A stretch of DNA of 64,000 nt, taken from Olsenella sp. (GTDB lineage Bacteria > Actinomycetota > Coriobacteriia > Coriobacteriales > Atopobiaceae). Position 1 is the first letter of the stretch; each line of letters starts with the position of its first letter. The stretch covers positions 62,001-126,000 of the forward strand of contig JALCMG010000004.1 of the NCBI GenBank assembly GCA_022648325.1, written 5' to 3'. Positions 9,574 to 26,210 of this stretch are shown in pieces. A program made the translations under genes and the position numbers. The notes under the pieces were generated by a model. The model had not been told where the DNA came from. It saw nothing but the letters and a program-made list of their open reading frames with translations, and did no database searches.

Positions 9574-9626
9574 TATGACTGAGATATTCTCGCCATGCGT
9601 GAAGGAAGTCAAGGAATTACGTAGCG

Positions 9627-10440: not shown

Positions 10441-10513
10441 TAAACTAATTTTCTCTCTCCATTCCTGTTAAAACTCAAAGCTTATCTGCAGATATTTTCT
10501 TCTCAATGCCATG

Positions 10514-10540
10514 TTGACAAAACCGGTTTACTATTATTCA
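10514..10540 (+). promoter_or_regulatory. dhuD promoter with LacI-type operator in the spacer
   Basis: TTGACA at 10514-10519 is a consensus -35. TATTCA at 10535-10540 is a possible -10 with a short spacer. AAACCGGTTT at 10520-10529, a perfect palindrome, lies between them. A second inverted repeat, TACTATT-ATTC-AATAGTA, follows at about 10529-10546. The first matches the operator family near the lacI-type gene and the PTS genes. Confidence 0.65.
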
Positions 10541-10581
10541 ATAGTACCGAGAACAACCCCTTTCAAACGATAGGAGCACAT

Positions 10582-11403
10582 ATGGATGAGAAGACCGCAG
10601 GCATTCTCTCTAGCTTCTCGCTCGAGGGCAAGGTGGCCCTGGTAACGGGCGCCACCTATGGCATTGGCTTTGCGATTGCCACCGCCCTCGCCGAGGCTGG
10701 CGCCAAGATCGCGTTCAACGACCGTCGCCAGGAGCGCATCAAGAGCGCCACCGCAGAGTACGCAAAGCGTGGCATCGAGGCCCATGGCTTTGTGGCGGAC
10801 GTGACCAGCGAAGAGCAGGTCGCAGGCCTTATTGAGAACATCCGCGAGGTCTATGGGACCACGCCGGACATCCTGGTGAACAACGCAGGCATCATCAAGC
10901 GCATCCCCATGCTGGAGATGAGCGCCGCGGACTACCGCCAGGTTGTTGACATAGACCTCGTTGGCCCCTTCATCTGCGCAAAGGCCGTGATTCCCGGCAT
11001 GATCGAGAAGGGCCATGGCAAGATCATCAACATCTGCTCGATGATGAGCGAGCTTGGCCGCGAGACCATCGCGGGCTACGCCGCCGCAAAGGGTGGCCTC
11101 AAGATGCTCACCAAGAACATCTGCTCAGAGTTTGGCGAGGCCAACATCCAGTGCAACGGCATTGGGCCGGGCTACATTGCCACCCCGCAGACCGCTCCCC
11201 TGCGCGAGCGCCAGGCGGACGGCTCCCGCCACCCCTTTGACCAGTTCATCTGTGCAAAGACGCCCGCTGGCCGCTGGGGCACGCCCGAGGACCTCATGGG
11301 GCCGGCGGTGTTTCTCGCCTCTGACGCCTCGAACTTTGTGAACGGCCACATCCTCTACGTTGACGGTGGCATTCTCGCCTATATCGGCAAGCAGCCGGAG
11401 TAG
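10582..11403 (+). CDS. dhuD: SDR dehydrogenase DhuD-like (makes KDG from unsaturated-uronate product)
   Basis: NAD(P)H-dependent short-chain reductase that converts 3-deoxy-D-glycero-2,5-hexodiulosonate to KDG. The cofactor motif is TGATYGIG (22-29) and the catalytic Ser-Tyr-Lys are at about S153, Y166 and K170 (YAAAK). The C-terminal half (RERQADGSRHPFDQF, NGHILYVDGGILAYIGKQPE) closely resembles, as I recall it, the streptococcal DhuD of glycosaminoglycan degradation. An AGGAG ribosome-binding site precedes the ATG. It is first in a dhuD-dhuI unit under a LacI-type operator. Databases often label such proteins gluconate 5-dehydrogenase or KduD. Confidence 0.88.
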   Translation: MDEKTAGILSSFSLEGKVALVTGATYGIGFAIATALAEAGAKIAFNDRRQERIKSATAEYAKRGIEAHGFVADVTSEEQVAGLIENIREVYGTTPDILVNNAGIIKRIPMLEMSAADYRQVVDIDLVGPFICAKAVIPGMIEKGHGKIINICSMMSELGRETIAGYAAAKGGLKMLTKNICSEFGEANIQCNGIGPGYIATPQTAPLRERQADGSRHPFDQFICAKTPAGRWGTPEDLMGPAVFLASDASNFVNGHILYVDGGILAYIGKQPE

Positions 11404-11429
11404 CACAACCCCACTCGAAAGGAAGCACA

Positions 11430-12068
11430 ATGAAGATCGCGCTCATCAACGAAAACAGCCAGGCAGCCAAGAATGCCATGATTGAGAAGGCCCTGCGCAA
11501 GGTCGTAGAGCCCATGGGCCACGAGGTATTCAACTATGGCATGTACACGGCGGATGACGAGGCCCAGCTCACCTACGTGCAGAACGGCATCCTCGCGGCC
11601 ACCCTTCTCAACGGCGGCGCGGCGGACTACGTTGTGACCGGCTGCGGCACCGGCGAGGGAGCCATGCTCGCACTCAACTCCTTCCCCGGAGTCATCTGCG
11701 GCCACGTGGAGGATCCCCTCGACGCCTATACCTTTGCGCAGATCAATGATGGTAACGCGGTTGCCATGCCCTTCGCCCTCAAGAACGGGTGGGGCCAGGA
11801 ACTCAACCTCGAGTACACCTTCGAGAAGCTCTTTGGCTTTGGCTCTGGCAACGGCTACCCTGCCGAGCGCGTGGTTCCCGAGCAGCGCAACAAGAAGATC
11901 CTCGACAGCGTGCGAGAGGCGAGCTTCCATCCGTTCACCGAGCTTCTCTCCAAGCTCGACCGTGACCTCGTGCGTGGCGCCTTCGCAGGCGAGCACTTCC
12001 AGGAGTACTTCTTTGCAAACGCGACGAACGAGGCTGTCACCAAGGTGGTTCGCGAGGTTCTCGCCTAG
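11430..12068 (+). CDS. dhuI: RpiB/LacAB-family sugar isomerase, DhuI-like
   Basis: Predicted isomerase of 4-deoxy-L-threo-5-hexosulose uronate, the product of unsaturated glucuronyl hydrolase. The 212-residue RpiB/LacA/LacB fold shows the active-site TGCGTGEG loop (70-77, with Cys72). It is longer than RpiB at its C-terminus, as DhuI proteins are. It follows dhuD by 26 bp with a GAAAGGAAGC ribosome-binding site. The pairing of an RpiB-family isomerase with this SDR is the known streptococcal DhuI-DhuD arrangement. A ribose-5-phosphate isomerase role is less likely in this setting. Confidence 0.87.
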   Translation: MKIALINENSQAAKNAMIEKALRKVVEPMGHEVFNYGMYTADDEAQLTYVQNGILAATLLNGGAADYVVTGCGTGEGAMLALNSFPGVICGHVEDPLDAYTFAQINDGNAVAMPFALKNGWGQELNLEYTFEKLFGFGSGNGYPAERVVPEQRNKKILDSVREASFHPFTELLSKLDRDLVRGAFAGEHFQEYFFANATNEAVTKVVREVLA

Positions 12069-12100
12069 GAACCTGCCAATTCCATAAGATGTAGTTTCGC

Positions 12101-12144
12101 TGGTAACGGGGACGCAGGGAAATCCTTGCGTCCCCGTGTTACCA
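12101..12144. repeat. Long hairpin after dhuI
   Basis: TGGTAACGGGGACGCAGGGA at 12101-12120 pairs, with a small bulge, with the following 22 bases ending GTGTTACCA. There is no T-run, so it is not a standard terminator. It could end dhuD-dhuI or be a REP-like palindrome. Confidence 0.6.
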
Positions 12145-12152
12145 TTTGTTTA

Positions 12153-12165
12153 GTAAACCGTTTAC
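12153..12165. promoter_or_regulatory. LacI-family operator, probable autoregulation site
   Basis: GTAAAC-C-GTTTAC is a perfect 6+1+6 palindrome 21 bp before the lacI-type start codon. It belongs to the same TAAAC/GTTTA family as the sites at 10520, 25621 and 26175. Confidence 0.7.
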
Positions 12166-12186
12166 CAATCGTCTGAGCGAGGCTCT

Positions 12187-13206
12187 ATGCCCACAGCCAC
12201 AAAGAAGCGCGTCACCATCAACCAGATTGCCCAGATCGCAGGGACGTCCAAGACAACGGTCTCGTTCTATCTCAACGGGCACACCGACCGAATGTCGCGG
12301 GAGACGCTCGAACGCATCAAGCAGGCAATTAGCGAGACAGGCTATGAGCCTAGTCCCTTGGCACGCAGCATGAACGCAAAGCAGACGTTCCTCATTGGCG
12401 TTGTGGTTGGCGATATCGCAAATCACTTCTCCAACCAGATCGTGAAGGGCATCGACTCCGTTGCAAACGCCGCTGGCTATCGGCTCCTCATTAGCAGCTC
12501 GAACTTCGACCGCGACAACGAGCATGCCCTCATCGACCGCCTCATGGCCGTGGGTGTCGACGGCTTTATCGTGCAGCCAACCGCGCGATTCCGTGAGGTC
12601 GCGGATGCCCTGTCTAACTCCGGAAAGCACCTCGTCTTCTTTGACAGCAAGTACTACGACTATACGGCGAGCTGGGTTAAGACCGACAACTACGAGGCAA
12701 CCCGTGATGCGATCTCGACCTGCCTTGACCGCGGGTACGAGCGCGCGCTGGTGGTTGCTGCAAAGCCACAGCTCCTCAGCTCGCGCACCGAGCGCCTGAA
12801 GGGCTGCATCGACACCTTGGGAGACAGGGGCGTTAAGTTCTCCCAGTTTGTGATTCCGGACAATGGTGTGCCAACGGAGAAGCTCACGCATTGGCTTCAC
12901 GAGCAGCTGGACGAGTCAACCGTACCTACGCTTGTCTTTGCGCCAAACTGCTGGGCCTTACCAGATGTATACGTCGCGATGAGGGACTTCTATCCCCGCA
13001 TGCCACACGAGATCGGGCTTCTCGGCTTTGACAACACCGATTGGGCAAGCGTTGCCTCCCCGAGCGTCTCGGTGGTGGCCCAACCGGCGTTCGAGGAGGG
13101 AGTCCAGGCGGCAAAGATTCTCCTTGACCTCATTGGGGGCAAAGGAGAGATTGACCCGCATCAAATCCTTCCTTGCAAGGTGCAATGGGGAGCAAGCACG
13201 CGCTAG
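12187..13206 (+). CDS. LacI-family transcriptional regulator (RegR-like candidate)
   Basis: Repressor of 339 residues with the classic N-terminal LacI helix-turn-helix (VTINQIAQIAGTSKTTVSFY, about 9-28) and hinge. A periplasmic-binding-like sugar domain follows (LIGVVVGDIANHF, GLLGFDNTDWASV). It sits between dhuD-dhuI and the opposing PTS/glycosidase operon. Matching operators occur before itself, dhuD, PTS IIB and PTS IIA. In streptococci the equivalent glycosaminoglycan locus is controlled by the LacI-type RegR, so a similar role is likely. The effector is unknown. A bidirectional terminator separates it from the operon end. Confidence 0.9.
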   Translation: MPTATKKRVTINQIAQIAGTSKTTVSFYLNGHTDRMSRETLERIKQAISETGYEPSPLARSMNAKQTFLIGVVVGDIANHFSNQIVKGIDSVANAAGYRLLISSSNFDRDNEHALIDRLMAVGVDGFIVQPTARFREVADALSNSGKHLVFFDSKYYDYTASWVKTDNYEATRDAISTCLDRGYERALVVAAKPQLLSSRTERLKGCIDTLGDRGVKFSQFVIPDNGVPTEKLTHWLHEQLDESTVPTLVFAPNCWALPDVYVAMRDFYPRMPHEIGLLGFDNTDWASVASPSVSVVAQPAFEEGVQAAKILLDLIGGKGEIDPHQILPCKVQWGASTR

Positions 13207-13228
13207 CGCCTTTCGCATGACGACGAGC

Positions 13229-13259
13229 AAGGCCGGCCTTCCCAAGTAAGGCCGGCCTT
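13229..13259. terminator. Bidirectional terminator between the lacI-type gene and the PTS operon
   Basis: AAGGCCGGCCTT, a 7-nt loop, then AAGGCCGGCCTT and ATTT. Each arm is itself self-complementary. It ends both the regulator gene and the opposing long operon. Confidence 0.85.
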
Positions 13260-13296
13260 ATTTGCGTGGCGGCTAGGATGTCTGGGACAAGATTCG

Positions 13297-16296
13297 CTAG
13301 CAGGTGACCAGGGTCACCAGCGTCATCTCGCCCCTCCTCACCTGATAGCGCACTGCGGGAATCACTGACTCGGCATGCGAGATGTTCGTGTTAGCCTCTG
13401 CGTGGATGATGACCTTCTCGCCTGGCGTAGCAAGAGCCCGCACCTCGCAGGCGGCGTCAATGTCTGTCTCCCCCAGCGTATGGTAGTTGCCAGGCACCGC
13501 AAACCCGCAGTCCAGGGCCTCGCAGGCGTCATCGGTCCGTACGTGATGGATGCGCAGGTGACCCCGCAGCAGGGGCACAACCTCTGTGCGCACCTCGATG
13601 CCAGGTATGGGTGACCAGGAAAGTCTTGTCTCCCAGAGTTCGCCTGCCGCCGCACGTTGCCCAAGCTCCTCGGATAGCTCGCGGGCGCCCTCGACAAGGT
13701 TCCAAAAAGACCCCACCCATTCCGGAGGCAGCTGAAGCATTTCCGAGTCTGCCGCACCTTCGGGAACAAGGACCCTTCCTCCCACGAGAAAGGAGAGCGT
13801 TCCGTCTGGGGTGGCCTCCTCGGGCGTGCGCTCGGAGCGTGAGGCCGAGAAGCCAAAGCGGGTGCTGTAGGCAAACTTCCCGTACTTGGCTGCAGACTGT
13901 GCGAAGGGGTGTTTGGGAAGAGGTCCCGTGCGGTAGAGAAAGACCTCCCCCTCCCCATCGCGCGCCACGAGGCCAAGGGGCGTCTGGGCAATAGGAGGGA
14001 GCTTTGGAAGTGGCTCGGGGATAGCGCGCCAGACCGGGTCATCCTCCGGAAGTGCGAGGCAAGCAAACGCCATCAGGCTCCAGTAGGGAGAGCCAGGCCC
14101 GTTGTAGCCCTCGGCCATGTGGAGGCAGGGATACTTGTATCCAATCGACTGGACGCCGGCGTTGTCCGTGACGAGATTCCGATCGAAGGACGCAATCGAA
14201 CGCGTCACAAGGCCGAGAAGGGCACCCGAAGAGAAGCCAGGCCCAAGATCCACCCTGGCAGCAAGGGCCTCGGACCAGAACCCTGCGAAGGCAAAGCGAT
14301 AGGTGAGAGACCTGCCAAACGGGACCGGCTCTCCCCTCGAACTAAAGAGAAGGACGTAGTCCCTGGCAAATCGCGCGGCACGCGTCTTGTACTCGCCGGC
14401 ACGCGTGGCATCGCAATCTCCAAAGAGGCGCGCGTAGAGGAGCCCAAAGAAGTGGAAGGTCATCGCGTTGTAGTAGTCAAAGACGCCGCCAGGCCCGTCT
14501 TGGTACCAACCGTTGCCACGATAGAAGCCGTCGAGCGTGGCAAGGTCGTCGGCGAGTTTTTTGTTGTCCCACTCCCTACCCCGCTCGCGCAACGCAAGGT
14601 TTGCCAGGACCCTGAACCAGAGCCAGTTTCCCAATGGGTACTCAGAGCGGTTTACCGCAAGGAGCCAAGTCGCAAGGCGCGCCTTCACGTCCTCTGCGAG
14701 GGGCTCCCAGAGGACGTCCGGAGCGACGAGCAGAGCGTAGGCCAATGCGGCGACCTCAACAAAGCGCTGGTCATGGTCACGAAACCCTCCCCAGTACTCT
14801 GGAGAGGCGGGATCTGTGCCCGCCTCTATCCCCTTGAGATAGACCCTCTCGAAGAAGCCGTCCCTGCTCCTGCCGCCTCCCGCCCATAAGGGAGCGAGCC
14901 CCCAGAGCTGGCGCGCCCAGGCCTCGAAGGAGAGCACATCGTGCTCGTAGAGGGTAGCGCCGCCTGCCAGATCGAGGCGTGCGCACCCCTTGCTGTAGAA
15001 CGGTTTGAGGGGCTCCAGATACCCGAAGAGCTCCCCTGCGAGCCACTCGCGCAGAGACGAGCCTGCCACGGCTAAGGACTCCTTCTTCTTGAGGACCTCC
15101 GCCTCGACCTCCGACGCCTCTGTGATGCGAGGGCCAGAGAAGGGCTCGCCGGTGTCGCAGCCGTAGGTGACGCCCTCTTCGATGAGTCGTGCCCCCTTGC
15201 CAAGCTGGATGCAGGGCTTGCCGGCATCGGTGGCGTCTGGTGAATAGGACACCTCGCAGTCCTTGAGCTCGAGCGTACCGGGAACGTCCTCTCGCCCCTT
15301 GAAGAAGGAGCTCTGGGAGACGCCCGTAGCCTTGCAGCGCACAAGGTGGAGATCAACCAGCGGACGCTCGGTTTGGTAGCCCTTCTCGGAACCATAGTCG
15401 TAGTTCAGGAGCCTGCCGGGGTTCTCGAAGACACAGTCCTGGAAGCGCCAGTTGGCGGCATCCTCCCTAATAACGTCCCCCTTCACGGCGTAGTACTTGA
15501 TTGCGGCGTGCATGTGGTGGGTTCCCTCGAGGATGTGGGGGTACTCACCCGGCCCCACAATCTGGCAGTGGCTCACGAAGAGGTTCACAGCGCCCAGCCG
15601 AAAAGCGTTGCATGCGGTGTTGAGCAGGCAATTCTCCACAAAGACGTTCCGCGCGTCAAAGCCGGCGACGCAGTCGTCCCCGCACTTGAGCGTGCATCCC
15701 TCGATGCTCACGTTCGTGCAGTGGTGGATGTTGAAGCCGTCATGTCCGCCGAGGACCGTGACACCATCAAACCTCACGTTCGTGCACGAGTCGACCTGGT
15801 GGCTCCAGTTTGCGGACTTCTCGAACGTGTAGCCAGAGAGAAAGACGTTGCGGCACCTGCAGACGCGGATTCCCATGGCACCGCGGAAGCCCTCTTCCCC
15901 AGCCGGGTCAGTGCAGTCGGAGCCGCTGATCGAGGAACCCTTCTCGCCGGTGATTGCCACGTCCTCGGCGTCCGCCACCGTGATAAGCGCCCGGGTGTAG
16001 TGGGGCGGAATGCCCTGGATACGAGCGATGAACGGATCTTGGGCGTATGCCAGGGTCGTCGGGATGTCCCAATCGGTGTAGTCCGCAATGTTCGTGCTGC
16101 CTTCGAGGCGCGCACCGGGGGCCAGATGAAGCTCTGTATGGCCAAAGAGACGAACGCTGCCAATGTGGTAGGTCCCCGCCGGCACGATGACACGCGCCCC
16201 CTTCTCCTTGACGGCAGCGTCGAGCACTTCCTGGAACTCTCTTGTCACCAGGCCATTACCGGCTCCCAGTTCCTTTGGTACGACAAGCTCACGCAT
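13297..16296 (-). CDS. Two-domain protein: GH28-like beta-helix plus DUF2264
   Basis: The 999-residue cytosolic protein has no signal peptide. Residues about 1-400 form a right-handed beta-helix resembling GH28 polygalacturonases, with CTNVSIEGCTLKCGDDCVAG containing the GDD dyad at 206-208; the usual later GHG motif is not evident. Residues about 417-999 match DUF2264, starting LFGYLEPLKPFYSKG. I believe CAZy places DUF2264 members in a beta-glucuronidase family (GH154), but I cannot check this. The start is the ATG at 16296, overlapping the upstream stop (ATGCGTGA). It is last in the PTS operon. A joint role on a uronate-containing oligosaccharide is inferred. Confidence 0.78.
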   Translation of the reverse strand: MRELVVPKELGAGNGLVTREFQEVLDAAVKEKGARVIVPAGTYHIGSVRLFGHTELHLAPGARLEGSTNIADYTDWDIPTTLAYAQDPFIARIQGIPPHYTRALITVADAEDVAITGEKGSSISGSDCTDPAGEEGFRGAMGIRVCRCRNVFLSGYTFEKSANWSHQVDSCTNVRFDGVTVLGGHDGFNIHHCTNVSIEGCTLKCGDDCVAGFDARNVFVENCLLNTACNAFRLGAVNLFVSHCQIVGPGEYPHILEGTHHMHAAIKYYAVKGDVIREDAANWRFQDCVFENPGRLLNYDYGSEKGYQTERPLVDLHLVRCKATGVSQSSFFKGREDVPGTLELKDCEVSYSPDATDAGKPCIQLGKGARLIEEGVTYGCDTGEPFSGPRITEASEVEAEVLKKKESLAVAGSSLREWLAGELFGYLEPLKPFYSKGCARLDLAGGATLYEHDVLSFEAWARQLWGLAPLWAGGGRSRDGFFERVYLKGIEAGTDPASPEYWGGFRDHDQRFVEVAALAYALLVAPDVLWEPLAEDVKARLATWLLAVNRSEYPLGNWLWFRVLANLALRERGREWDNKKLADDLATLDGFYRGNGWYQDGPGGVFDYYNAMTFHFFGLLYARLFGDCDATRAGEYKTRAARFARDYVLLFSSRGEPVPFGRSLTYRFAFAGFWSEALAARVDLGPGFSSGALLGLVTRSIASFDRNLVTDNAGVQSIGYKYPCLHMAEGYNGPGSPYWSLMAFACLALPEDDPVWRAIPEPLPKLPPIAQTPLGLVARDGEGEVFLYRTGPLPKHPFAQSAAKYGKFAYSTRFGFSASRSERTPEEATPDGTLSFLVGGRVLVPEGAADSEMLQLPPEWVGSFWNLVEGARELSEELGQRAAAGELWETRLSWSPIPGIEVRTEVVPLLRGHLRIHHVRTDDACEALDCGFAVPGNYHTLGETDIDAACEVRALATPGEKVIIHAEANTNISHAESVIPAVRYQVRRGEMTLVTLVTC

Positions 16297-18088
16297 AGTT
16301 GCTCCTTTCCTGCTCCGCCATTTCGGCGAGCTTGGCAATAAGGTCCTCAATGAGAAATCGCGCATCAAGTTGTTGGTAGACGCGGATGGAGCGCATTGCC
16401 TCGCTGGCGTGAAGATAGCTTCCGTCGTCTCCGATGGATGGCCTCTGAACGCTCTCGTGGAGGTCACGACGCTGGTCCAGAAGCACGCCAGGGGCGGCAA
16501 GGTCTCCGAGCACCCAGCCTTCCTCCGGAATCCACGATGCGCGTCCACGCATGCGCTCCTGGAAGAGCAGGAGGCCTTCCACGAGGAAGGAGCCGAGCGC
16601 GCCAAGAGGCTCCACGCGCCGCCGAAGCTCGGCAAGCGACACCTGCAGCTCTTTGTACGTCCCAACCGGTATCTGCCAGATCGGTATGTCCGAGGCAAAG
16701 ACCTCCTGTGCCGCCTTGACGTCACGGAAGAGATTGGCCTCGTGACCTCCGCCCGGGTAGCGGCCCCCGCCAACCCACACGAGTGTCAAGCGCCCCGCAA
16801 TGCCGGGGTCCTGCCTAAGCGCCAAGGCCGCATCGGTGAGCGCACCCATGCCAAGGAGATACAGAGGGCGCGGGTCGTCGCGCCAAGCCTCGTCGAGAAT
16901 GGCACGAACGCCGGGCACCGACATCGGGCTAACGTCCCCCAAGGAGTCCAGTGGCCCCTCGGCACCCTGGTAGAGCGGGACCCGGGCGGCACTGGCCCCG
17001 AGAAGGTCCATGACGCGCGCTGCCTCGTCAAAGGACGCCCCTGTGGAGCGGGGAAGCCCAAAGTGGCCAGCCACGACCGCGCGGACCTCGATGCTCGGGC
17101 AAAGCAGGGTGTAGGCAAGGGCAAACTGGTCGTCCGCCTCGTTGGCGGTATCGATGAGGACAATTGCGCGATACGTCGAGCGCTGCCTTCCGCTCGCTCC
17201 AAGGGAGAACGAGTCGTCGCACCAGCGAAGGCTAACCCGAGGATGGCGAGCGTGGCTTGGCTCGATTGCCAGAAGGCTGTACCCAGAGACCGCAAGGCTT
17301 CTTGGAAACCAGTGGTCGACAAGGGCAACCGGACGTCCGTCTGCGAGAAAGACGCAGCTCACCTGGCCTCCAAAGGTCTCATGGGGGTCAGGTGTTGGAG
17401 CATCGCTCACACACGGGTTGTCAATGAGCTCCCAAGGTCCAAAGGGGTCCTTTGCGCAGGCGACAAGCGCCGCATTGGGACTCCAACCCGTGCAGCCGCT
17501 CGTGAGGAGGAAGTGCGTTCCCGCCGCGTCAAAGGCACAGGGACTCTCTCGCCTTTGGCCCTCCAGAATGCGCGTGCCTTCCCCCTCGACGCCATCCAAA
17601 CCGGACGATACCCGCCACACATGAAGAGTGCCGTTGCCTTCGGAGGAGGAAATGAGATAGAACTTGCCGCCAGTCTCCCACAGCGTGAAGTCGCGTGAGT
17701 CCTCGCCACCAGGGCGGAAGCACCGTTCTATCTTGAATGGCCCCTCGGAGCGCTCGGCAACGGCAACGGCAAGCTCCGCCTTTTGATAGCTCGTGTCGTC
17801 CACGTGCATCCAGAGGAAGGCACGGCCGTTTTTTGGATCGCGTATGACCCTCGGCCGTTCGACTATCTGGTAGCCGCGGGCGCGCAGCTCTTCCGCAGCC
17901 AAAACAAGTCCGAGGTCCTCCCAGGTAGCAAGGTCAGCCGATGAGTAGAGGTGGATTCCGCGGCAGGTTCCGTCGTTGTCGTAGTCTTCGCCGTACCAAA
18001 GGTATCGTTCCTCGCACGGGAGAATCCAACCGCCGTGCGCCTGCAGCGGCCGACCTGCCCTGTCAAGCCAGGCATGTCCGTTACGCAT
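16289..18088 (-). CDS. Fusion of GH43-like glycosidase and nucleoside-hydrolase-like domain
   Basis: The 599-residue protein has an N-terminal half (about 1-295) that is a five-bladed GH43-type propeller (QAHGGWILPCEERYLWYGED, VERPRVIRDP, DFTLWETGGKFYL). Its C-terminal half (about 305-590) resembles the Ca-binding nucleoside hydrolase fold (LIDTANEADDQFALAYTLL, GMGALTDAALAL, VWVGGG). Such N-glycosidases hydrolyse ribofuranosides, so a pentofuranosyl substrate is conceivable (inference). The start is the ATG at 18088, overlapping the previous stop; an upstream in-frame ATG at 18109 is possible. It is translationally coupled on both sides. Confidence 0.75.
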   Translation of the reverse strand: MRNGHAWLDRAGRPLQAHGGWILPCEERYLWYGEDYDNDGTCRGIHLYSSADLATWEDLGLVLAAEELRARGYQIVERPRVIRDPKNGRAFLWMHVDDTSYQKAELAVAVAERSEGPFKIERCFRPGGEDSRDFTLWETGGKFYLISSSEGNGTLHVWRVSSGLDGVEGEGTRILEGQRRESPCAFDAAGTHFLLTSGCTGWSPNAALVACAKDPFGPWELIDNPCVSDAPTPDPHETFGGQVSCVFLADGRPVALVDHWFPRSLAVSGYSLLAIEPSHARHPRVSLRWCDDSFSLGASGRQRSTYRAIVLIDTANEADDQFALAYTLLCPSIEVRAVVAGHFGLPRSTGASFDEAARVMDLLGASAARVPLYQGAEGPLDSLGDVSPMSVPGVRAILDEAWRDDPRPLYLLGMGALTDAALALRQDPGIAGRLTLVWVGGGRYPGGGHEANLFRDVKAAQEVFASDIPIWQIPVGTYKELQVSLAELRRRVEPLGALGSFLVEGLLLFQERMRGRASWIPEEGWVLGDLAAPGVLLDQRRDLHESVQRPSIGDDGSYLHASEAMRSIRVYQQLDARFLIEDLIAKLAEMAEQERSNYA

Positions 18089-18902
18089 GCGCTTCCCGCT
18101 CTTCCTCACAGGCGTTCGTTCCCCAAACCTCTACCTGAGAGAGCGCGGGAAATCCGGGCTCAGCCTGGACAAAACCCTCCAGCCGAAGCCAGGAGACCAC
18201 GCTGCCGCCAAGGGCAAAGGCCTGCCGCTCGCCCGTCTTCTCAAGGGAAAGCTTCGTCTGGGTTCCATCGGAAAGCACAAGGGTCGCCTCGCGCCACCAG
18301 CCATCGTGGGGAAAGTCAGCCCTGAGCCAGAGCCTCAGCTCGTCGGCCACGACCGGGGTCCCAAACTCAATGGTGAGCTCCGCGTCCTTTCTCCCGGCAA
18401 TGCCCCACGATCCATGCGGCCACGAGCCATGGCGAGAGGGAGAACAGATTCCGTCTATCGCGTTTCTCGCCCAGAACTGGGGATTGTCGCAGGTGACGTT
18501 TGTCTCGGCGTGGGGAAACAGACGGGGTTTCTCGCCATTGCCAAGGTTGAGGTCATGAGAGTTGAGGGCGAGGTTCCTCCAGGAGGAAAGCTCACGAGGG
18601 TCCGCCGCCCTCACCCTCGCCCAGTGTCTCTCGTCTGCGAAAGCCCATCCCTTTCCATAGGCAACCTGACGCGCGGAGTCCGGGATTGGGTAGACAAGGC
18701 GTCCCCCTCGCAGCAGAACGAGGGATGGCTCGAGGCAAATATCAAGCTGCATCCAGAGCCAGGCCTCCGGAGAGTCGGCCTCGACGAGAAGGGCGTCGCC
18801 TTCCTCGTAGCGACCACGCCACGCGAGCATCACCTCGTCCTCGCACTCTCCGTGCCAACGGACGGACGAGTCTGCAGCAATCACGCTGAGGCCAACCTTC
18901 AT
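18081..18902 (-). CDS. Unknown 273-aa protein with a discoidin-like C-terminal domain
   Basis: I cannot assign a family with confidence. There is no signal peptide. The N-terminal half is beta-rich (VMLAWRGRYEEGDALLVEAD). The C-terminal half (about 120-262) looks like an F5/8C-type carbohydrate-binding sandwich: an opening NAIDG loop, then DAELTIEFGTPVVADELRLW, then LRLEGFVQ and a closing SQVEVWG. It sits between two glycosidase genes and overlaps both, so it probably recognises or trims the same imported sugar. It may instead be an uncharacterised enzyme. Confidence 0.7.
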   Translation of the reverse strand: MKVGLSVIAADSSVRWHGECEDEVMLAWRGRYEEGDALLVEADSPEAWLWMQLDICLEPSLVLLRGGRLVYPIPDSARQVAYGKGWAFADERHWARVRAADPRELSSWRNLALNSHDLNLGNGEKPRLFPHAETNVTCDNPQFWARNAIDGICSPSRHGSWPHGSWGIAGRKDAELTIEFGTPVVADELRLWLRADFPHDGWWREATLVLSDGTQTKLSLEKTGERQAFALGGSVVSWLRLEGFVQAEPGFPALSQVEVWGTNACEEEREAHA

Positions 18903-20566
18903 TGGTTAACCCCCTCCAGAATATCGCGGTAGGAAAACGAGGAGAAACTCGCAGAGAAGCTCCGGTCAAACGTGTCAGAGCAGAAGATGCCTACCATGGC
19001 TCCGGTATATGCCCAACCCTCCTGGTACTCGTCAGAAAGGAGCCTGGCGTCGAGGTCAATCGGCTTCCCTTCCAGCGCAAACGGTTGCAACGCACCACCA
19101 TCAAAGCCGTAGGAAAACCTGACGCGCGCCTCATCCATGTGGACGGACAAGTCGATGCGGGAAGCGTCATCGGGAACCGGTATGGCTCCCTCCTCCCCAA
19201 GCGGCATATCAAATGACTCTTCGTCGTTCACCATGAGGTGAAGAACCCGCCGCGCGCGCCTCTCGTCAAACGAGACATACGCAGCAAGCCAGGCGCGTGT
19301 GTCATAGACGCAGGCGATACCCGCCATGTGGTTGTAATGGGTTGGCTTTGCAGCAAGAGAGGTTCGCGCCTCCCAGGAGAAGGAGGAGATGCGGCGAGCG
19401 AGCAGCGCCTGGTCGAAGAGGCTGGTAAGAGACCCTCTGCCCTCCAACACAAGACCGTCTCCACTCCGCTCCATCCAAGATGGCATCATGCGCGGGGCAA
19501 GCCAGCCATCGCACCAGAGGTCGCGCTTGGACGAGAAGTCCATGACGTAGGTGCCCTGCCCATCAGTTGGAGAAAGGTGCCCTTGGACTACGCGATCCGG
19601 AAGCTCAACCTCGTAAGAGTCCCTCGGTTGGATTCCACCATCCGCAAGGCGCGGCCAACCATCCTGCCAGACCACCCGCTGTATGGCAGTCTCGCGACCC
19701 AGCGGAGAGCACCCCGCCTCCCCCTCCGTATAGACCGCGTTCTCCCCCATGCCTTGCTCGGTCCCGGGGAGATACCGCGAGCAGAGATGGCACACGTACC
19801 AGGAGCCATCCGGCCCTTCGAAGAGGTTGCCGTGGCCGGCCTTTCTCAGGTGGGCATCGCTCTCCCACGAGCAGACCAGGGGCTCTGGGCAAACCTCATA
19901 CGGGCCCCAGAGGCACTCGGAGCGCGCCATGCGAATGCGATGGCGCCTGCCCGTGCCCCCTTCTGCGCAGGCCAGGTAGTAGTAGCCCTCACGCCTGAGG
20001 ATGTGCGGACCCTCACGCAGGCCGTTCACGGCGTCATCGTTGTCGAGAACCCTCTTCGCCTCTCCAACAAGGCCATTCTCGTCAAACTCCTGAAGAATGA
20101 TGCCGTTGAAGCGGCGATGACCGGGCAGCGGACGAGGATCCCACTGAGGGTTGGCAACATAGTGCCTTCCACCTTCATGGAACAAGCCAGGGTCAAAGCC
20201 AGAGACGTTAAGAAGCAGCGGCTCCGACCAAGGTCCATCGATGTTGGGAGCTGTCACCAGGTAGTTCTCGACATCCTTGAAGATACCGTCAATCCCACGC
20301 GCAATGGTGTAGACGAGCCAGAACTTGCCGTCCGCATACGTGAGGTCCGGCGCCCAGATGCCGGCGGAGTCGGGAATGCCGGAGAGGTCGAGGCTTGGAA
20401 GCAACCCTCCCCTGCACGTCCAGTGCACTAGGTCGCGCGACTCGTAGCAGCTAACGGCAGGCATCCACTGAAAAGTTGATACCACGAGAAAGTACCATCC
20501 ATCTGGACCCTTGCAGACGCAAGGATCTGGGTGCCAGCCTCTGAGGACTGGGTTGGGTGCCCGCAT
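18899..20566 (-). CDS. GH43 glycoside hydrolase (beta-xylosidase / alpha-L-arabinofuranosidase type)
   Basis: Cytosolic inverting glycosidase of 555 residues. The GH43 catalytic trio is visible: Asp14 in GWHPDPCV, Asp125 in GFDPGLFHE (pKa modulator) and Glu185 in LREGPHIL. The IWAPDLTYADG motif is also present. Residues about 330-555 form the C-terminal beta-sandwich common in xylosidase-type GH43. A GAAAGGAGCG ribosome-binding site precedes the ATG. It implies xylosyl or arabinosyl residues in the imported oligosaccharide, which is unusual beside a glycosaminoglycan-like GH88/DhuI/DhuD set. The precise specificity cannot be read from sequence. Confidence 0.87.
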   Translation of the reverse strand: MRAPNPVLRGWHPDPCVCKGPDGWYFLVVSTFQWMPAVSCYESRDLVHWTCRGGLLPSLDLSGIPDSAGIWAPDLTYADGKFWLVYTIARGIDGIFKDVENYLVTAPNIDGPWSEPLLLNVSGFDPGLFHEGGRHYVANPQWDPRPLPGHRRFNGIILQEFDENGLVGEAKRVLDNDDAVNGLREGPHILRREGYYYLACAEGGTGRRHRIRMARSECLWGPYEVCPEPLVCSWESDAHLRKAGHGNLFEGPDGSWYVCHLCSRYLPGTEQGMGENAVYTEGEAGCSPLGRETAIQRVVWQDGWPRLADGGIQPRDSYEVELPDRVVQGHLSPTDGQGTYVMDFSSKRDLWCDGWLAPRMMPSWMERSGDGLVLEGRGSLTSLFDQALLARRISSFSWEARTSLAAKPTHYNHMAGIACVYDTRAWLAAYVSFDERRARRVLHLMVNDEESFDMPLGEEGAIPVPDDASRIDLSVHMDEARVRFSYGFDGGALQPFALEGKPIDLDARLLSDEYQEGWAYTGAMVGIFCSDTFDRSFSASFSSFSYRDILEGVNQ

Positions 20567-20592
20567 GCTCGCTCCTTTCGCAGAATCTCTCG

Positions 20593-21411
20593 CTAAGTGA
20601 GGGCGGAGATTGCCGCGCGAATCCCATTCGCCGCCCCGTCGTGGATGTTGTCCTGAACAACCATCGATGCCGCTTCTTTGACGGCTGGAATGGCATTGCC
20701 CATGGCAATGTCCAACCCCGCCTCGGCTATGGCCTCGATGTCGTTCTCGTCATCCCCTAACACGGCAACCTTGGACTTACCTAGGCCAAAGTGATTGGCA
20801 AGTACGCGAATGCCCTCTGCCTTTGTGCACGATGCGGCAGTCACATCAATCCAGTTGACATCCGAGCGAGCACAGCGCACGCCATCGACCTTAGAAAGCT
20901 CCGCTCGAAGTCTGTCGTATTGCGCCTGGTCCTTCGCATGCATCGCAAGCTTCAAGAGCCTCCCCGCACGCTTTGATGCATAGTCCTCTAGCTCTTCGTA
21001 GCTTGTCACCTCGTCATAGCGAGAGAACGCTGGTGCGGAAGACTCCTTTCCACGCGAGACCCGCCCACAGCTCGCGTTGAAATCGGCACCGCCAACGGAG
21101 ACATAGGCGGCCTCGTTTGCCGCAACGGCAATGGCTGCCCTAACAGCAGAAAGCCCAAGCGGGATGGTGTCGATAAGTATTCCATCCACAAACGTTGCAG
21201 CACCAGAAAGGCAGACGCACGTAGGAGGAAGTTCCAAACCGTCCATCAACTCAAAGATGTTGAACGGATGCCGGCCAGAAGAGACCGCACAGACAAAGCC
21301 CGCTGCGGCTGCATCCGCAAGCGCTTGTCTCGAGGCCTTGCTTACCTGCTTGTCTGGCCCAAGCAGCGTACCATCAAGATCGCAGCAGATGAGCCCTCGC
21401 TTCTCTACCAC
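20593..21411 (-). CDS. Cof-type HAD sugar phosphatase
   Basis: Haloacid-dehalogenase phosphatase of 272 residues with the motif I nucleophile in CCDLDGTLLG, motif II SSGRHPFN and motif IV GDDENDIEAI; the large type IIB cap lies between. The start is the GTG at 21411, overlapping the GH88 stop, since the frame upstream is shared with GH88 sequence and has no ribosome-binding site. In a PTS operon it may remove the phosphate introduced during uptake, so that the glycosidases can act. That role is inference; the fold is certain. Confidence 0.87.
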   Translation of the reverse strand: MVEKRGLICCDLDGTLLGPDKQVSKASRQALADAAAAGFVCAVSSGRHPFNIFELMDGLELPPTCVCLSGAATFVDGILIDTIPLGLSAVRAAIAVAANEAAYVSVGGADFNASCGRVSRGKESSAPAFSRYDEVTSYEELEDYASKRAGRLLKLAMHAKDQAQYDRLRAELSKVDGVRCARSDVNWIDVTAASCTKAEGIRVLANHFGLGKSKVAVLGDDENDIEAIAEAGLDIAMGNAIPAVKEAASMVVQDNIHDGAANGIRAAISALT

Positions 21412-22552
21412 AGCAGCGCATCCTTCCCCAGCAGGCGCAGCACACCCTCCAGGAAGAAGTAGTCGCCGTAGACCATTGGCACGTGACGGTCGTGCTCGGA
21501 GTGGTAGGCACCCGAGCACATCTGGACGATGCCGTCCCTCGTGGGATCCCAGTCGCAAAAGCGCCTGTCGGTTGCCTTGAGAATGCGGATAGCCCAGCTG
21601 CGGTAGAGGCCCTGCTCAAGCTCCGGCACCTGGCGTGCAATCTCGAGCATTCCGCAGGCGGCGCAGCATCCTGCTATCGCATCCCAATACACGGGCTCTT
21701 CCGGCTGGCGGAAGTCAAGCAGCGCCACATCTCCCGTAAGGGCGACGTTTGCCATGAAGTAGTGAGCAACGCGCTTGGCGGCGTCGAGGTAGCGCTGCTC
21801 GCCGGTATGGCGAGATGCCAGTGCATACCCATAGATTGCCCACGCCTGTCCACGGCTCCAGGAAGAGCCGGACGCATAGCCCTGGCCTCCCGGTGTGTCG
21901 AGAAGCTCGCCGTTTGTAGGATCCAAGACGATGATGTGGTTGCAGGAGCCGTCGGGGCGCACCGTGTAGCGCAGGAGCGTGTCTGCATGGTCCTCTGCGA
22001 TATAGGTGAAGCGGGGATCCTTGAGAACGTCGCTAGCCCAGAAGAGAAGCTGGATGTTCATCATCGAGTCGATAATAACCCACCCCGCACGATCCCGGTT
22101 CCAGGAACGAATGAAGCGCCCACGGGGGTTATAGCGACCAGCCAAGAGATGTGCTGCATGAAGCCCACGGGCAAGCGAGCGCTCGTTGCCCGTAAGGCGG
22201 TAGTCTGCCACGGCGGAGTGGAGCCACATGAAGCCAACGTCATGGTGAAGGCCCGTGTACTGGTCGAGGGCGCGGTCAAGCTCCTCCTCGCAGGTCTCCG
22301 CCGCCTTGCGGAACAAGTCATCTCCCCCGGCCTGCCACATTTGCCAGCAGATGCCCGGCCAGAAGCCGTTGGTCCACCAAATGATGTCGGACTGGGCCTT
22401 GTCCTCCTTGTAGACGCCATCCTCTGCGATGTAGGGATCTTCGCCCCCATGCGGCTGACCTCTGCGCCAAGCTTCTTGCCAAGCTTGGAGAACGTCTCCT
22501 CTGCCCAGGCGAGGTCATCGGCGGACAGATTCTGGCAAAGCTCTTCTGACAT
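21405..22552 (-). pseudogene. GH88 unsaturated glucuronyl hydrolase, frameshifted at a G5 tract
   Basis: Hydrolyses 4,5-unsaturated uronic acid from the non-reducing end of lyase products. The main frame carries the family motifs SDIIWWTNGFWPG, HHDVGFMWLHSAV and DSMMN (the two catalytic Asp regions), GYASGSSWSRGQAW and YGDYFFLEGVLRL. The N-terminal 35-40 residues (MSEELCQNLSADDLAW) lie in another frame. The switch falls at 22444-22448, a run of five C on the plus strand. One extra base there would restore MGGEDPYIAEDGVYKEDK. Start ATG 22552 has AGGAG upstream. It is either a real lesion, a slippage-prone site or a read error; the rest is intact. Confidence 0.8.
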
Positions 22553-22653
22553 CAAAGACTCCTGTCTATCGTGAGATGGAATGCCCTGCCGTATCCCAGC
22601 TTCGACAAGTTGAGATACGGGAGAGCAGCCCGGGGCTTCCCTCCCTTTGGCGG

Positions 22654-23109
22654 CTATGCGCCAAAGGCCCTGGCGTACTGCCGGTTACAGAACTCCTTGC
22701 GCTTCTCGTCAACAAGCTGTGGCGTCATGGCATCCAAAATGCGCCCAGCGTGCTTCTTGTCGTTAACCTTGATGAAGGCGGAGAATCCCTCCATGAGCAG
22801 AGATGCGCGTACAGGATCCGCAAGCCTCATGCCCATGAGGCGGTTGAACTGCTTGACCATCTCGTCCTGCTTCTTCTCCGCAGCAAATGCCTGGAAACGC
22901 AGAAGCTCGCGTGCATAGGGAGAGAGCGCCTGACACGCCAGGCGAGAGTCGATCCTCTTTTTGAAGTCCTCGAAGTCTTCTCGCTTGATGTCATCAAGAA
23001 GACGCGTATGGATACGGATGCGTAGCCAAAGAGAGATGCCCCAGGAGGCACAGGCGATGAGGACAATGGCGACGATCGTAAAACCAAGCGCGTTCACATC
23101 GATGGTCAT
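22654..23109 (-). CDS. Small single-pass membrane protein in the PTS operon
   Basis: The 151-residue protein has one N-terminal membrane helix (FTIVAIVLIACASWGISLWL, about 10-29) and a long, charged, helical cytosolic tail. I do not recognise the tail (DDIKREDFEDFKKRIDSRL). An AGGAGAA ribosome-binding site precedes the ATG. It follows PTS IID, the same position that a YajC-like gene occupies in streptococcal hyaluronate PTS loci, but the sequence is not YajC-like. It may assist the permease or tether the cytosolic enzymes (speculation). Confidence 0.7.
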   Translation of the reverse strand: MTIDVNALGFTIVAIVLIACASWGISLWLRIRIHTRLLDDIKREDFEDFKKRIDSRLACQALSPYARELLRFQAFAAEKKQDEMVKQFNRLMGMRLADPVRASLLMEGFSAFIKVNDKKHAGRILDAMTPQLVDEKRKEFCNRQYARAFGA

Positions 23110-23199
23110 GGCATTTCTCCTAGCACTGGGAATTCCGGTAAGGGAGCCCCCAACCAAAGCAGGGGCTCCCAGTAGTACAAACGACGTGCAAGCTCTACC

Positions 23200-24081
23200 T
23201 TACGCCGCACCGCCAGTCACGCCGAGAAGCGTGAGGACAACGCAGGCGGCAAGGATAACGCCAAGGGCAATCATCGCGGAGTTCTTGTTGGTGCTCTTAC
23301 GCACATAGGCAAAGCAACCAAGCGTGATTGCGAGGGGCACGAGGCCAGGCATGATGGAGTCGAGCGTGGACTGCAGGTTGAACGTGGCACCGCCAGTGGC
23401 AACCTTGAGCGTGGTGGTAACGGTCACGAACTTTGCGGTCATGGCTCCGACCATGATCATGCCCAGGACGGTGAAGCCCTTCGTGAAGGCAGCCATCTTT
23501 CCGGACTCCATGGCCTCGGTCACGAACCCGGTACCGAGCTTCATGCCAAGCGAGCCGCAGTACCAGTGGAGGATCTGGTTGGGGATGTTGTAAATCAGAG
23601 CAAAGAGGATGGGGCCGAGCCAGGAACCCTGCTGAGAGAAGCCGATGGCAACACCCGTGGCGATAACGCGAAGGACGGAGAGCTGGATGGAGTCGCCAAT
23701 GCCTGCGATGGGACCCATGAGGGCGACCTTGATGGCCTCGATCGAGGCGTCATCGTACTCCTCGCCGCGATCGAGCGCAGCCTTGCGCTCGTACTCCATC
23801 GAGATGACGATGGCATAGATGAACGACGCGAACATCGGCGTGGTGTTGAAGAAGTTCTGGTGACGCTGAAGGGCGTCGTAGTACTCGTCAGTGTCCTTGC
23901 CATAGATGTCCGCCAGGAAGGGCTCGAGCACCCAGACGGTCGTGGTGCCCTGCTGCTTGGTGTAGGAGGTGCAGAACATGAGCCACCAGACGCGCGTGAA
24001 GAGCCTGCGGATGATGCCCTTCTGCTTCTGAGGGGTGAGGCCTGCGGAGGATTCCCGCTCGGCAAGAGCAGCGTTAGTCAT
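23200..24081 (-). CDS. PTS mannose/fructose/sorbose family IID component
   Basis: Membrane subunit of a mannose-family phosphotransferase permease. The 293 residues show the IID hallmarks: a cytosolic N-terminus, a charged middle (NTTPMFASFIYAIVISMEYE, EAIKVALMGPIAGIGDSI) and C-terminal hydrophobic segments. The ATG at 24081 overlaps the IIC stop by 8 bp (ATGACTAA). With IIA, IIB and IIC it forms one complete permease. The GH88 and dhu context suggests unsaturated or uronate-bearing oligosaccharides as substrate (inference). Confidence 0.95.
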   Translation of the reverse strand: MTNAALAERESSAGLTPQKQKGIIRRLFTRVWWLMFCTSYTKQQGTTTVWVLEPFLADIYGKDTDEYYDALQRHQNFFNTTPMFASFIYAIVISMEYERKAALDRGEEYDDASIEAIKVALMGPIAGIGDSIQLSVLRVIATGVAIGFSQQGSWLGPILFALIYNIPNQILHWYCGSLGMKLGTGFVTEAMESGKMAAFTKGFTVLGMIMVGAMTAKFVTVTTTLKVATGGATFNLQSTLDSIMPGLVPLAITLGCFAYVRKSTNKNSAMIALGVILAACVVLTLLGVTGGAA

Positions 24082-24943
24082 TGAAGAAGTCCTCGCTTTC
24101 ATCAACGGGGCCGGCAGAAAGCTGCTTGGAGGACGCCTTGTCCTCGATGCGGTGCAGCTCGCGGAAGATTGTGACCGCGCAGATGACGCCGCCGATAACG
24201 GCAACCTCAACCAAGGAGAGAATCGACGTGGTGGAGCTGGTGAGCTTGACCGCGCCATCGACGATCTCGGCACCGGTGACCTTGGTGAAGGTGAAGAAGG
24301 CAATCAGGCCAAAGCCAAGGAAGAAGTACGGGAAGGACTCCTTGGTATAGAGGGACTTGAGGAGCATTGCGAGGCCGAGGGCAGGAAGCGCGGCTGCGGC
24401 AACCTTGAGGGAGGCGTTGAGCCAGGCGGGGATTGCATCAACAAAGGCAGCGACGGCGGGCTGGCCAGCAAGCGTGGCGACGAAGCCAAGCACGAAGTAG
24501 CAAAGCTCAAAGCAGCAGAACTGAATGATCCACAGGCGGTTGTAGCCACCCCAGTTGTGATTGGCAAGGAGCTTCTCGAACTTAGGAACCAGCGAGGTGA
24601 CGACGATCTTCATAAGCGAGTACAGGAGCGAGCCCAGGGCAGAAAGCGGAATGGCGAGGGTCATTGCGACTTCGATGTCCTGTCCGAGGAGCATGGCAAA
24701 GGCGCCACCAAAGATAGAACCCATCGTGATGTCGGACGGCATCACGCCACCAAGGCTCACGTTGCCGATGAAGACCAGCTCGAGCTGGGCGGCAAGGATG
24801 ATGCCCTCAGTAGGATGCCCAAGCAGCGCACCGAGGATGGCAACGCAGAAGATTGGGCGGGCAAGCTGGGTCGATGCCCACCAGTCCAGGAACTTCGCCC
24901 CCATCAGCACAAGGCCGACGATAAGGGCTGCAGATACGTCCAT
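24074..24943 (-). CDS. PTS mannose/fructose/sorbose family IIC component
   Basis: Polytopic translocation subunit of the same permease, 289 residues. Conserved IIC features include the N-terminal hydrophobic run and the LGHPTEGIILAAQLELVFIG segment. The PSDITMGSIFGGAFAM segment follows. The start has an AGGAGGG-type ribosome-binding site. The C-terminus is charged and cytosolic (ASSKQLSAGPVDESEDFF). It is coupled to IID by overlap. A 139-bp gap with two hairpins separates it from IIB. Confidence 0.95.
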   Translation of the reverse strand: MDVSAALIVGLVLMGAKFLDWWASTQLARPIFCVAILGALLGHPTEGIILAAQLELVFIGNVSLGGVMPSDITMGSIFGGAFAMLLGQDIEVAMTLAIPLSALGSLLYSLMKIVVTSLVPKFEKLLANHNWGGYNRLWIIQFCCFELCYFVLGFVATLAGQPAVAAFVDAIPAWLNASLKVAAAALPALGLAMLLKSLYTKESFPYFFLGFGLIAFFTFTKVTGAEIVDGAVKLTSSTTSILSLVEVAVIGGVICAVTIFRELHRIEDKASSKQLSAGPVDESEDFFND

Positions 24944-24995
24944 GTTTCCCTCCTAAGATGTGTTTCTGACCTTTTCGAGGCCAAGCTATGACAGC

Positions 24996-25069
24996 CCCCA
25001 GCCTAGGTTCTGGGGACGCTGTGCCTATTGGCTATGCATACGGGATTGCCGGACGAGAAACAACCGGCA
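24996..25069. promoter_or_regulatory. Two intercistronic hairpins between IIB and IIC
   Basis: CCCCAG/CTGGGG at 24996-25001 and 25010-25015, and TGCCGG/CCGGCA at 25047-25052 and 25064-25069. Neither has a T-run. They could protect or partially attenuate the long operon mRNA. Confidence 0.5.
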
Positions 25070-25082
25070 CGTTGGGTGAGCG

Positions 25083-25565
25083 CTACAGGAGACCCATGAT
25101 GTCCTTGCGGTCATCGGTGGGGACCGGCTGGGTGATGACCTCGATGCCAAGGTCGTGGATGGACTTGATGGCATCGATGTCGTCCTCGGTCAGGTAGACC
25201 GAGTCAGAGATCTTCTTCTTGCCGGAGATGGGGCTGTTGATACGGCCATAGTTTGCAACGTCGAGCGTTGGGCGCTCGGAGATGCCCTGGAAAACAGCGA
25301 GGAGGTCTGCAGGGTCATTGGAGACGAGTAGAATCCTCAGAGCCTGGGAACGAGGGTCGTTCAGGATTGCGACCGCCTTGGCAATTGGCAGCACGGCAGC
25401 CTTCACGCCAGCAGGCGCCGCCATCTTGAGGGCGCTTACCTGTACCGCATTCTTTGCAATCGCATCCGAAGCAACGATGATGCGCGTGATGTTGAGCTGC
25501 TTGCACCACTTCACCGCAACCTGGCCGTGGATAAGACGATCGTCGACACGCGCCATAACAATCAT
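25083..25565 (-). CDS. PTS mannose/fructose/sorbose family IIB component
   Basis: Phosphocarrier of 160 residues that passes phosphate from IIA to the sugar. The active-site His lies in RVDDRLIHGQV near the N-terminus, as in all mannose-family IIB. The ATG at 25565 is chosen because GGAGG sits 7 bp upstream; the longer frame adds an unrelated leader. It is the first gene after the operator/promoter at about 25617-25650, so the IIB-IIC-IID-glycosidase operon can be transcribed separately from IIA. Confidence 0.95.
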   Translation of the reverse strand: MIVMARVDDRLIHGQVAVKWCKQLNITRIIVASDAIAKNAVQVSALKMAAPAGVKAAVLPIAKAVAILNDPRSQALRILLVSNDPADLLAVFQGISERPTLDVANYGRINSPISGKKKISDSVYLTEDDIDAIKSIHDLGIEVITQPVPTDDRKDIMGLL

Positions 25566-25616
25566 GAAACTACCTCCGCTTTCCTGACTGATTCCCCACT
25601 CGGACAACCCTGTTTG

Positions 25617-25650
25617 TTAGTAAACTGGTTTAACTCTTTTTGTTAAAAAA
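25617..25650 (-). promoter_or_regulatory. LacI-type operator and promoter before PTS IIB
   Basis: TAAAC-TG-GTTTA at 25621-25632 is a perfect 5+2+5 palindrome. On the minus strand a TTAACA (-35) and TTACTA (-10) 17 bp apart flank or overlap it. Repression by the LacI-type protein at 12187 is predicted. Confidence 0.62.
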
Positions 25651-25678
25651 AGGCCTTACTCGAGCCACGTCACACCGG

Positions 25679-26104
25679 TTACGCAAAGAAGTCTTCTTCT
25701 CCCTCTTCCGGTGCGGCTTCAAGAGAAACTCGCTTCGTCACGCACGTCGCCTCGGCAATTGCCTCGTCGATATCTGACACGGAGAGTGCGCCATCTCGAG
25801 AAACAATTGAAAGGACAAGCGGAAGGCTCATCCCCGCTAGAACAGTGACGTTGGGCACATCAGAAAGAGCCTGGAGGCACTGGTTGCAAACGCTTCCACC
25901 AAGGAGATCAGCAATAACAATTACCTGTTCAGGCGCTGCATCAAGAGCAAGCTTGCGGACCTTCTCGCCAAGCTCGACAACAGAGCCATCGGGCTCAAGC
26001 CCAAAGCTTGAGAGGCCTTCGATCTTGCCGCAAATCATGGTTGCAGCACCGAGCACCCCCTTAGCAAGGCCATCGTGTGAGACGAGAACAACTCGCTTCT
26101 CCAT
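25679..26104 (-). CDS. PTS mannose-family IIA component
   Basis: Soluble phosphocarrier of 141 residues that accepts phosphate from HPr. The active-site His is in VVLVSHDGLAKGV (about residue 9-10), and IADLLGGSVCNQ is the conserved second motif. The ATG at 26104 has AGGAGAGG upstream. It is separated from IIB by a 113-bp gap with its own operator, and has its own promoter with another operator. The negatively charged tail (EEGEEDFFA) is unremarkable. Confidence 0.93.
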   Translation of the reverse strand: MEKRVVLVSHDGLAKGVLGAATMICGKIEGLSSFGLEPDGSVVELGEKVRKLALDAAPEQVIVIADLLGGSVCNQCLQALSDVPNVTVLAGMSLPLVLSIVSRDGALSVSDIDEAIAEATCVTKRVSLEAAPEEGEEDFFA

Positions 26105-26160
26105 GTATCCTCTCCTGCCAGTTGCGTTGGGTATGAGACTCTCAGGCAATTCTCAGCACT

Positions 26161-26210
26161 AGTTCACTTGTTAGTGAACTGGTTTAGTAAGACTATATGG
26201 CACTCCGTGT
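26161..26210 (-). promoter_or_regulatory. Promoter and LacI-type operator before PTS IIA
   Basis: TGAAC-TG-GTTTA at 26175-26186 matches the operator family in 4 of 5 pairs. AGTTCAC-TTGTTA-GTGAACT at 26161-26180 is a second, perfect inverted repeat overlapping it. A TATAGT on the minus strand just upstream is a good -10, so the operator would cover the transcription start. Confidence 0.6.

Follow-up and report, generated by a model that had tools for sequence, protein, structure and literature searches.

A LacI-linked phosphotransferase locus of Olsenella sp. predicted to process glucuronate-capped oligosaccharides through a DUF2264 dehydratase

The 64,000-nucleotide stretch of Olsenella sp. 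DNA analysed here (the window; contig JALCMG010000004.1, positions 62,001 to 126,000) carries on its minus strand a run of genes (about 26104 to 13297) that joins a mannose-family phosphotransferase system (PTS) to a set of glycan-active enzymes, as assigned by Pfam and NCBIfam matches. The transport subunits are EIIA (25679–26104, with a ribosome-binding site at its 26104 start; EIIA-man, E 1.7e-16), EIIB (25083–25565; PTSIIB_sorb, E 1.2e-41), EIIC (24074–24943; EII-Sor, E 9.6e-51) and EIID (23200–24102; EIID-AGA, E 2.6e-78). Few-base overlaps between adjoining genes are frequent within the run, and a simple hydropathy scan shows no signal-peptide-like hydrophobic N-terminus in any of the enzymes. 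A sequence-only reading of the same DNA had proposed both the operon content and the lack of signal peptides, and both are borne out. Its boundaries (13297–26210) enclose the PTS and enzyme genes but leave out the uronate-pathway genes at 7841–13206, and its gene list took GH88 for intact and omitted a small protein encoded between EIID and GH88 (22654–23109, minus strand). This protein has one N-terminal hydrophobic helix (a single transmembrane segment) and no Pfam match.

The gene closing the run (13297–16296) encodes a fusion of a GH28-like right-handed β-helix with DUF2264 and DUF2264_C domains. Results of a search of the protein data bank (PDB) show that its DUF2264 half matches dehydratases, including 9o4u (β-D-glucuronic acid dehydratase, E 9e-31), 9nwf and 8oi4, some of the matches being titled 'glucuronate dehydratase'. 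A former GH154 member was reported in 2025 to dehydrate saturated terminal β-linked glucuronic acid (GlcA), thereby enabling cleavage by GH88, and this dehydratase–GH88 relay has been published for B. caccae; BT3677, the founding GH154 member, is likewise a dehydratase and has a second domain that the B. caccae enzyme, BcGDH, lacks (PMC12269599). The ten positions at which mutation abolishes activity in BcGDH were mapped onto the window protein, the numbering having been checked on the chain as printed; nine are kept here, including the proposed catalytic residues Y229, R285 and Y289 (PMC12269599). The equivalent of the tenth, N176, is a glycine, as it also is in the G213 and G228 relatives described below. 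DUF2264 of this locus belongs to the β-D-glucuronate dehydratase family and is predicted to have that activity.

Because such an enzyme would dehydrate a saturated GlcA end, no lyase-made substrate would be needed. Secreted enzymes were checked one family at a time across the genome, and neither PL8, heparinase II/III-type (heparinase II/III C) nor pectate lyase gave a match, other lyase families not having been searched. The earlier suggestion of a lyase-made fragment is thus not supported, since a saturated end would suffice and three lyase families were not found. Across Coriobacteriia, DUF2264 occurs in 8 of 398 genomes. GH88-family genes are present in six of these eight, compared with 27 of the 390 others (counting any GH88-family match above the cut-off; Fisher p 5e-6, relatedness uncorrected), and in all six the two genes lie within ~10 kb of each other. 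The two DUF2264 genomes with no GH88 match are G262 and G029; in the latter a lone DUF2264 gene (L002, 1486–3147) stands beside a glycosyltransferase-type gene. Text searches of the literature on DUF2264 returned nothing direct.

The GH88 gene (21405–22552, minus strand) encodes a homologue of unsaturated glucuronyl hydrolase (UGL; PDB 1vd5, E 4e-55), but its reading frame is broken, which the sequence-only reading had not noticed. The first ~40 codons (MSEELCQNLSADD...GAKIP) lie in one frame and the remainder (YIAEDGVYKED...WWTNGFWPG...) in another. Compared with the intact G213 and G350 homologues, a single base is absent at ATCCCTAC, around 22436 (window 22431–22440), and an internal start at 22340 would drop the WWTNGFWPG stretch. 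A second GH88 was searched for in the genome and not found. Given that every other gene of the locus is open, the frameshift appears to be either recent or an assembly error. Programmed frameshifting, which would need a −1 slip, was considered and rejected: no heptameric slippery site is present at ATCCCTAC, making mutation or assembly error likelier. The pathway may be switched off in this strain unless the missing base is an assembly error.

The uronate-pathway genes adjoin the run. A DhuD-like SDR reductase (10582–11403; Pfam) and DhuI, an RpiB-type isomerase of 4-deoxy-L-threo-5-hexosulose-uronate (DHU; 11430–12068; PDB match to gbs1892, 4u8e, E 1.4e-81), are encoded on the plus strand together with a LacI-family regulator (12187–13206; Pfam); DhuD accompanies DhuI in other loci, with 73–86% identity. 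On the minus strand lie a PfkB kinase, likely the 2-keto-3-deoxygluconate (KDG) kinase (8507–9538; PfkB, E 2.1e-38), and 2-keto-3-deoxy-6-phosphogluconate (KDPG) aldolase (7841–8479; Aldolase, E 3.6e-59).

A 16-bp palindromic operator motif, AATAAACCGGTTTATT, derived from the G228, G135 and G350 loci, was scanned over the 64-kb window; with up to four mismatches allowed, only three sites were found, against 0.29 expected. These putative LacI-type operators lie ~50–70 bp ahead of dhuD (10517–10532, plus strand; ACAAAACCGGTTTACT, three mismatches), EIIA (26173–26188, minus strand; ACTAAACCAGTTCACT) and EIIB (25619–25634, minus strand; GTTAAACCAGTTTACT). Operator-like sites are also present upstream of dhuD and EIIA in G213. 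Together with the 61–64% identity of LacI across this and five other loci, the putative operators support a single LacI regulon joining uptake, depolymerisation and DHU catabolism.

The remaining hydrolases point to the kind of glycan that may be handled. A fused protein (16289–18109, minus strand) matches, over its N-terminal half, the GH43_24 exo-β-1,3-galactanases 6eug, 3vsf and 7bys of the PDB. The eight residues given for subsite −1 of Pc1,3Gal43A (PMC7939473) are all kept, the equivalents of E57, E102, R103, Y126, D158, E208, W229 and Q263 falling at positions 41, 84, 85, 108, 140, 188, 209 and 249. The protein is of the GH43_24 exo-β-1,3-galactanase type, and this is its predicted activity. 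Its nucleoside-hydrolase-like half (16289–17150; IU_nuc_hydro, E 7.8e-21) reads DTANEADD(Q) against the DxDxxxDD signature, with the second Asp changed, and its likely His region reads VLGDLAA; a literature search on nucleoside-hydrolase domains in glycan loci found nothing direct. The second GH43 (18899–20566, minus strand; GH43 and GH43_C2) matches the xylosidase/arabinosidase 3c2u over its full length (residues 2–549, E 1.3e-116) and contains HPDP, GFDPG and REGPH, which represent the catalytic Asp/Asp/Glu motifs. It is of the β-xylosidase/arabinosidase type, with a corresponding predicted activity. The pentose-bearing substrate of the sequence-only reading is consistent with this enzyme, but pentose as a food is doubtful because searches of the genome for xylose isomerase and for arabinose isomerase gave no match, suggesting that the pentose is removed and not used, or is used by a different route.

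An NCBIfam match (E 4e-18) likens the GH28-like domain to rhamnogalacturonidases. With respect to the catalytic Asp triad of GH28, it has D188 and D209/D210 with the spacing of polygalacturonase, and it reads C231-N-A at the position where the family motif is Gly-His-Gly. AlphaFold2 models built without an alignment are of low confidence for this domain (pLDDT 48) and for the conserved discoidin-like protein (18081–18902, minus strand; pLDDT 41). The latter is 44–53% identical to counterparts in three other loci. Its name holds weakly, as the window protein has no Pfam match and F5/8 type C is matched in only two of four homologues, at best with E 0.0035. The protein is a recurrent member of Coriobacteriia uronate loci and not a mark of this particular substrate.

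A search for the same gene order in other Coriobacteriia, as the sequence-only reading had advised, uncovered an orthologous operon in G213, a member of another family, as well as related loci elsewhere. The G213 order is DhuD-DhuI-LacI, GH28-like, GH43_24, discoidin-like, GH43, GH88, small protein and EIID-C-B-A, with a GH105-like gene nearby; DUF2264 is a separate gene, GH88 is intact, the small protein is a 35% identical homologue at the same position, and both the nucleoside-hydrolase half and the HAD gene are missing. The Cof-type HAD phosphatase of the window (20593–21411, minus strand; TIGR00099, Hydrolase_3) had been assigned the removal of the PTS phosphate as a first step, a proposal that we set aside because the G213 operon has no such gene. 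Close GH28-like versions occur in three of the 398 genomes, namely this one, G262 (77%) and G213 (62%), and a scan of the contigs of 84,980 species with two short patterns returned one distant Verrucomicrobia protein. G262 holds a decayed remnant (L026, 8881–12245) in which GH28–DUF2264 is split by frameshifts and ~100 residues of the GH43/nucleoside-hydrolase protein survive; it adjoins ATPase-type open reading frames and has neither PTS nor GH88 beside it. Related loci that combine DUF2264 and GH88 with a similar LacI and a PTS occur in G228, G167, G135 and G350. Alongside its uronate or glycosaminoglycan (GAG)-type locus, G228 also carries PL8 and a heparinase-type gene, so that DUF2264 does not mark a non-GAG locus, contrary to what had been supposed. 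Seven further genomes of the genus all lack DUF2264, hence the locus is accessory within the genus.

Two further features lie next to these genes. A GntR/FCD regulator (Pfam) is encoded at 9718–10440 on the plus strand. The gap at 13207–13297, between the convergent ends of LacI and the operon, contains the GC-rich near-palindromes GCAAGGCCGGCCTTCC and GTAAGGCCGGCCTTAT, possibly a two-way terminator.

From the gene content, active-site conservation, synteny and operator-like sites observed, we infer what each enzyme does, in which order the steps run and which substrate is taken up, as follows. The mannose-family PTS would import, and as such systems do phosphorylate, a small oligosaccharide with a saturated non-reducing β-D-glucuronate; streptococcal PTS uptake with C-6 phosphorylation provides a precedent (PMC6837340). 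In the cytoplasm, DUF2264 would convert the terminal GlcA to its 4,5-unsaturated form, GH88 would release the unsaturated uronate as DHU, and DhuI, DhuD, KDG kinase and KDPG aldolase would convert DHU to pyruvate and glyceraldehyde-3-phosphate. The GH43_24-type exo-galactosidase, together with the GH43 xylosidase/arabinofuranosidase, would trim the remaining β-1,3-galactosyl and pentose core, and the GH28-like domain probably takes off an α-linked cap, such as rhamnose or galacturonate, that would bar access to the GlcA if left in place. PTS-fed, cytoplasmic handling by uronate- and pentose-type enzymes, as anticipated, is thus retained.

The predicted activities fit two glycans, side-chain or backbone fragments of type II arabinogalactan and the proteoglycan linkage tetrasaccharide, and point to a GlcA-capped β-1,3-galactosyl glycan, with plant arabinogalactan in first place and the proteoglycan linkage region in second. 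Arabinogalactan is favoured because GH43_24 enzymes are known from its breakdown and because the GH28-like partner could remove an α-linked cap. We give an even chance to a LacI-controlled, lyase-independent PTS pathway for a GlcA-capped oligosaccharide, most likely fragments of plant type II arabinogalactan freed by other bacteria. Several points weigh against this reading: the only GH88 copy found carries a frameshift; the GH28-like domain lacks its usual histidine and may be inactive or of other specificity; the nucleoside-hydrolase-like domain, absent from G213, has no assigned role; the pentose may go unused for want of the two isomerases; and the literature examined contains no account of arabinogalactan uptake by a PTS.

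The strongest alternative, which we consider a real though clearly lesser possibility, is that the locus is decaying and non-functional in this strain, a state compatible with any of the proposed substrates. The frameshift in the one GH88 found and the broken remnant of the same locus in G262 argue for it. Against it, a one-base loss may reflect misassembly, none of the remaining genes is interrupted, and both the operators and those catalytic residues that were tested are conserved.

It is less probable, though still worth weighing, that the substrate is the GAG–protein linkage tetrasaccharide, GlcA-β1,3-Gal-β1,3-Gal-β1,4-Xyl, or part of it, left over from the degradation of proteoglycans by other bacteria. 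The dehydratase and GH88 would then take the GlcA, GH43_24 the β-1,3-linked galactose and the GH43 xylosidase the xylose, so that the sugars match the predicted activities; a related GAG locus, accompanied by PL8 and a heparinase-type gene, occurs in the same class, and a GlcA-β1,3-hexose whose C-6 is free is similar to the hyaluronan disaccharide imported by the streptococcal PTS (PMC6837340). However, this glycan offers no place for the GH28-like domain, the PTS subunits are just 26–34% identical to those of GAG loci, xylose isomerase was not found, and a literature search on the linkage region yielded no paper describing its use by bacteria. The more specific idea of a dedicated Gram-positive pathway for this tetrasaccharide, with PTS uptake and a dehydratase fused to a β-helix domain of new specificity, is more doubtful still.

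A fragment of pectin (rhamnogalacturonan I or II) or of glucuronoxylan, as the sequence-only reading proposed, seems similarly improbable. The rhamnogalacturonidase-like GH28 domain, the xylosidase-type GH43 and the GH105-like gene near the G213 operon would suit such a substrate; against it, GH43_24 homology points to β-1,3-galactan instead, the pectate lyase family was not found in the genome, and the side-chain uronates of glucuronoxylan are α-linked, whereas the characterised dehydratases act on β-GlcA. Least probable of all is an ordinary hyaluronan or chondroitin disaccharide locus with acquired extra hydrolases, since, despite the PTS, GH88, DhuI, DhuD and LacI that it has in common with streptococcal loci, PL8 and heparinase-type lyases were not found, the two GH43 and GH28-like genes are conserved in the G213 operon and the PTS subunits diverge from GAG-locus ones, which also supports the earlier view that the substrate probably differs from hyaluronan.

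Should the lyase-independent pathway be correct, glucuronate dehydratases would let uronate-capped glycans enter the DHU pathway of PTS-using Gram-positives without a lyase, and a missing lyase would no longer signal an incomplete pathway when GH88–PTS loci are read. It would also suggest a niche for Coriobacteriia on arabinogalactan or proteoglycan leftovers, and the rare fusion of a GH28-like domain with a dehydratase would lend itself to direct tests of specificity.

The closest known systems include the loci of G228, G167, G135 and G350 (L028–L031), which share LacI, DhuI, DUF2264, GH88, EIIB/C/D and the operator motif with the window, as well as DhuD and the discoidin-like protein where the stretch reaches, but have no GH43 or GH28-like gene in the locus; a literature search on GAG use by Coriobacteriia found nothing direct. 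B. thetaiotaomicron BT3677, which has an arabinogalactan setting with GH43_24 enzymes, offers another comparison. Likened here by its description, this two-domain GH154 protein, active on methyl-β-glucuronate (PMC12269599), also couples DUF2264 to a second domain, but its transport and operon differ. In B. caccae PUL25 (BcPL35-BcGH88-BcGDH; PMC12269599), a DUF2264/GH154 dehydratase is likewise paired with GH88; import there relies on SusCD rather than on a Gram-positive PTS, PL35 has no counterpart here, and BcGDH, unlike the window dehydratase, is neither fused to a GH28-like domain nor provided with DUF2264_C. The streptococcal GAG cluster (S. agalactiae gbs1886–1892; PMC6837340) shares the mannose-family PTS, GH88, the DhuD–DhuI pair and cytoplasmic hydrolysis; in contrast, the Olsenella locus has no hyaluronate lyase, a lyase feeding the PTS was not found in the three families searched, and a dehydratase, GH43_24, a xylosidase-type GH43 and a GH28-like domain are added. 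What is new is thus a known type of PTS–GH88–DhuI/D locus in which a predicted dehydratase replaces the lyase and is accompanied by an uncommon set of hydrolases.

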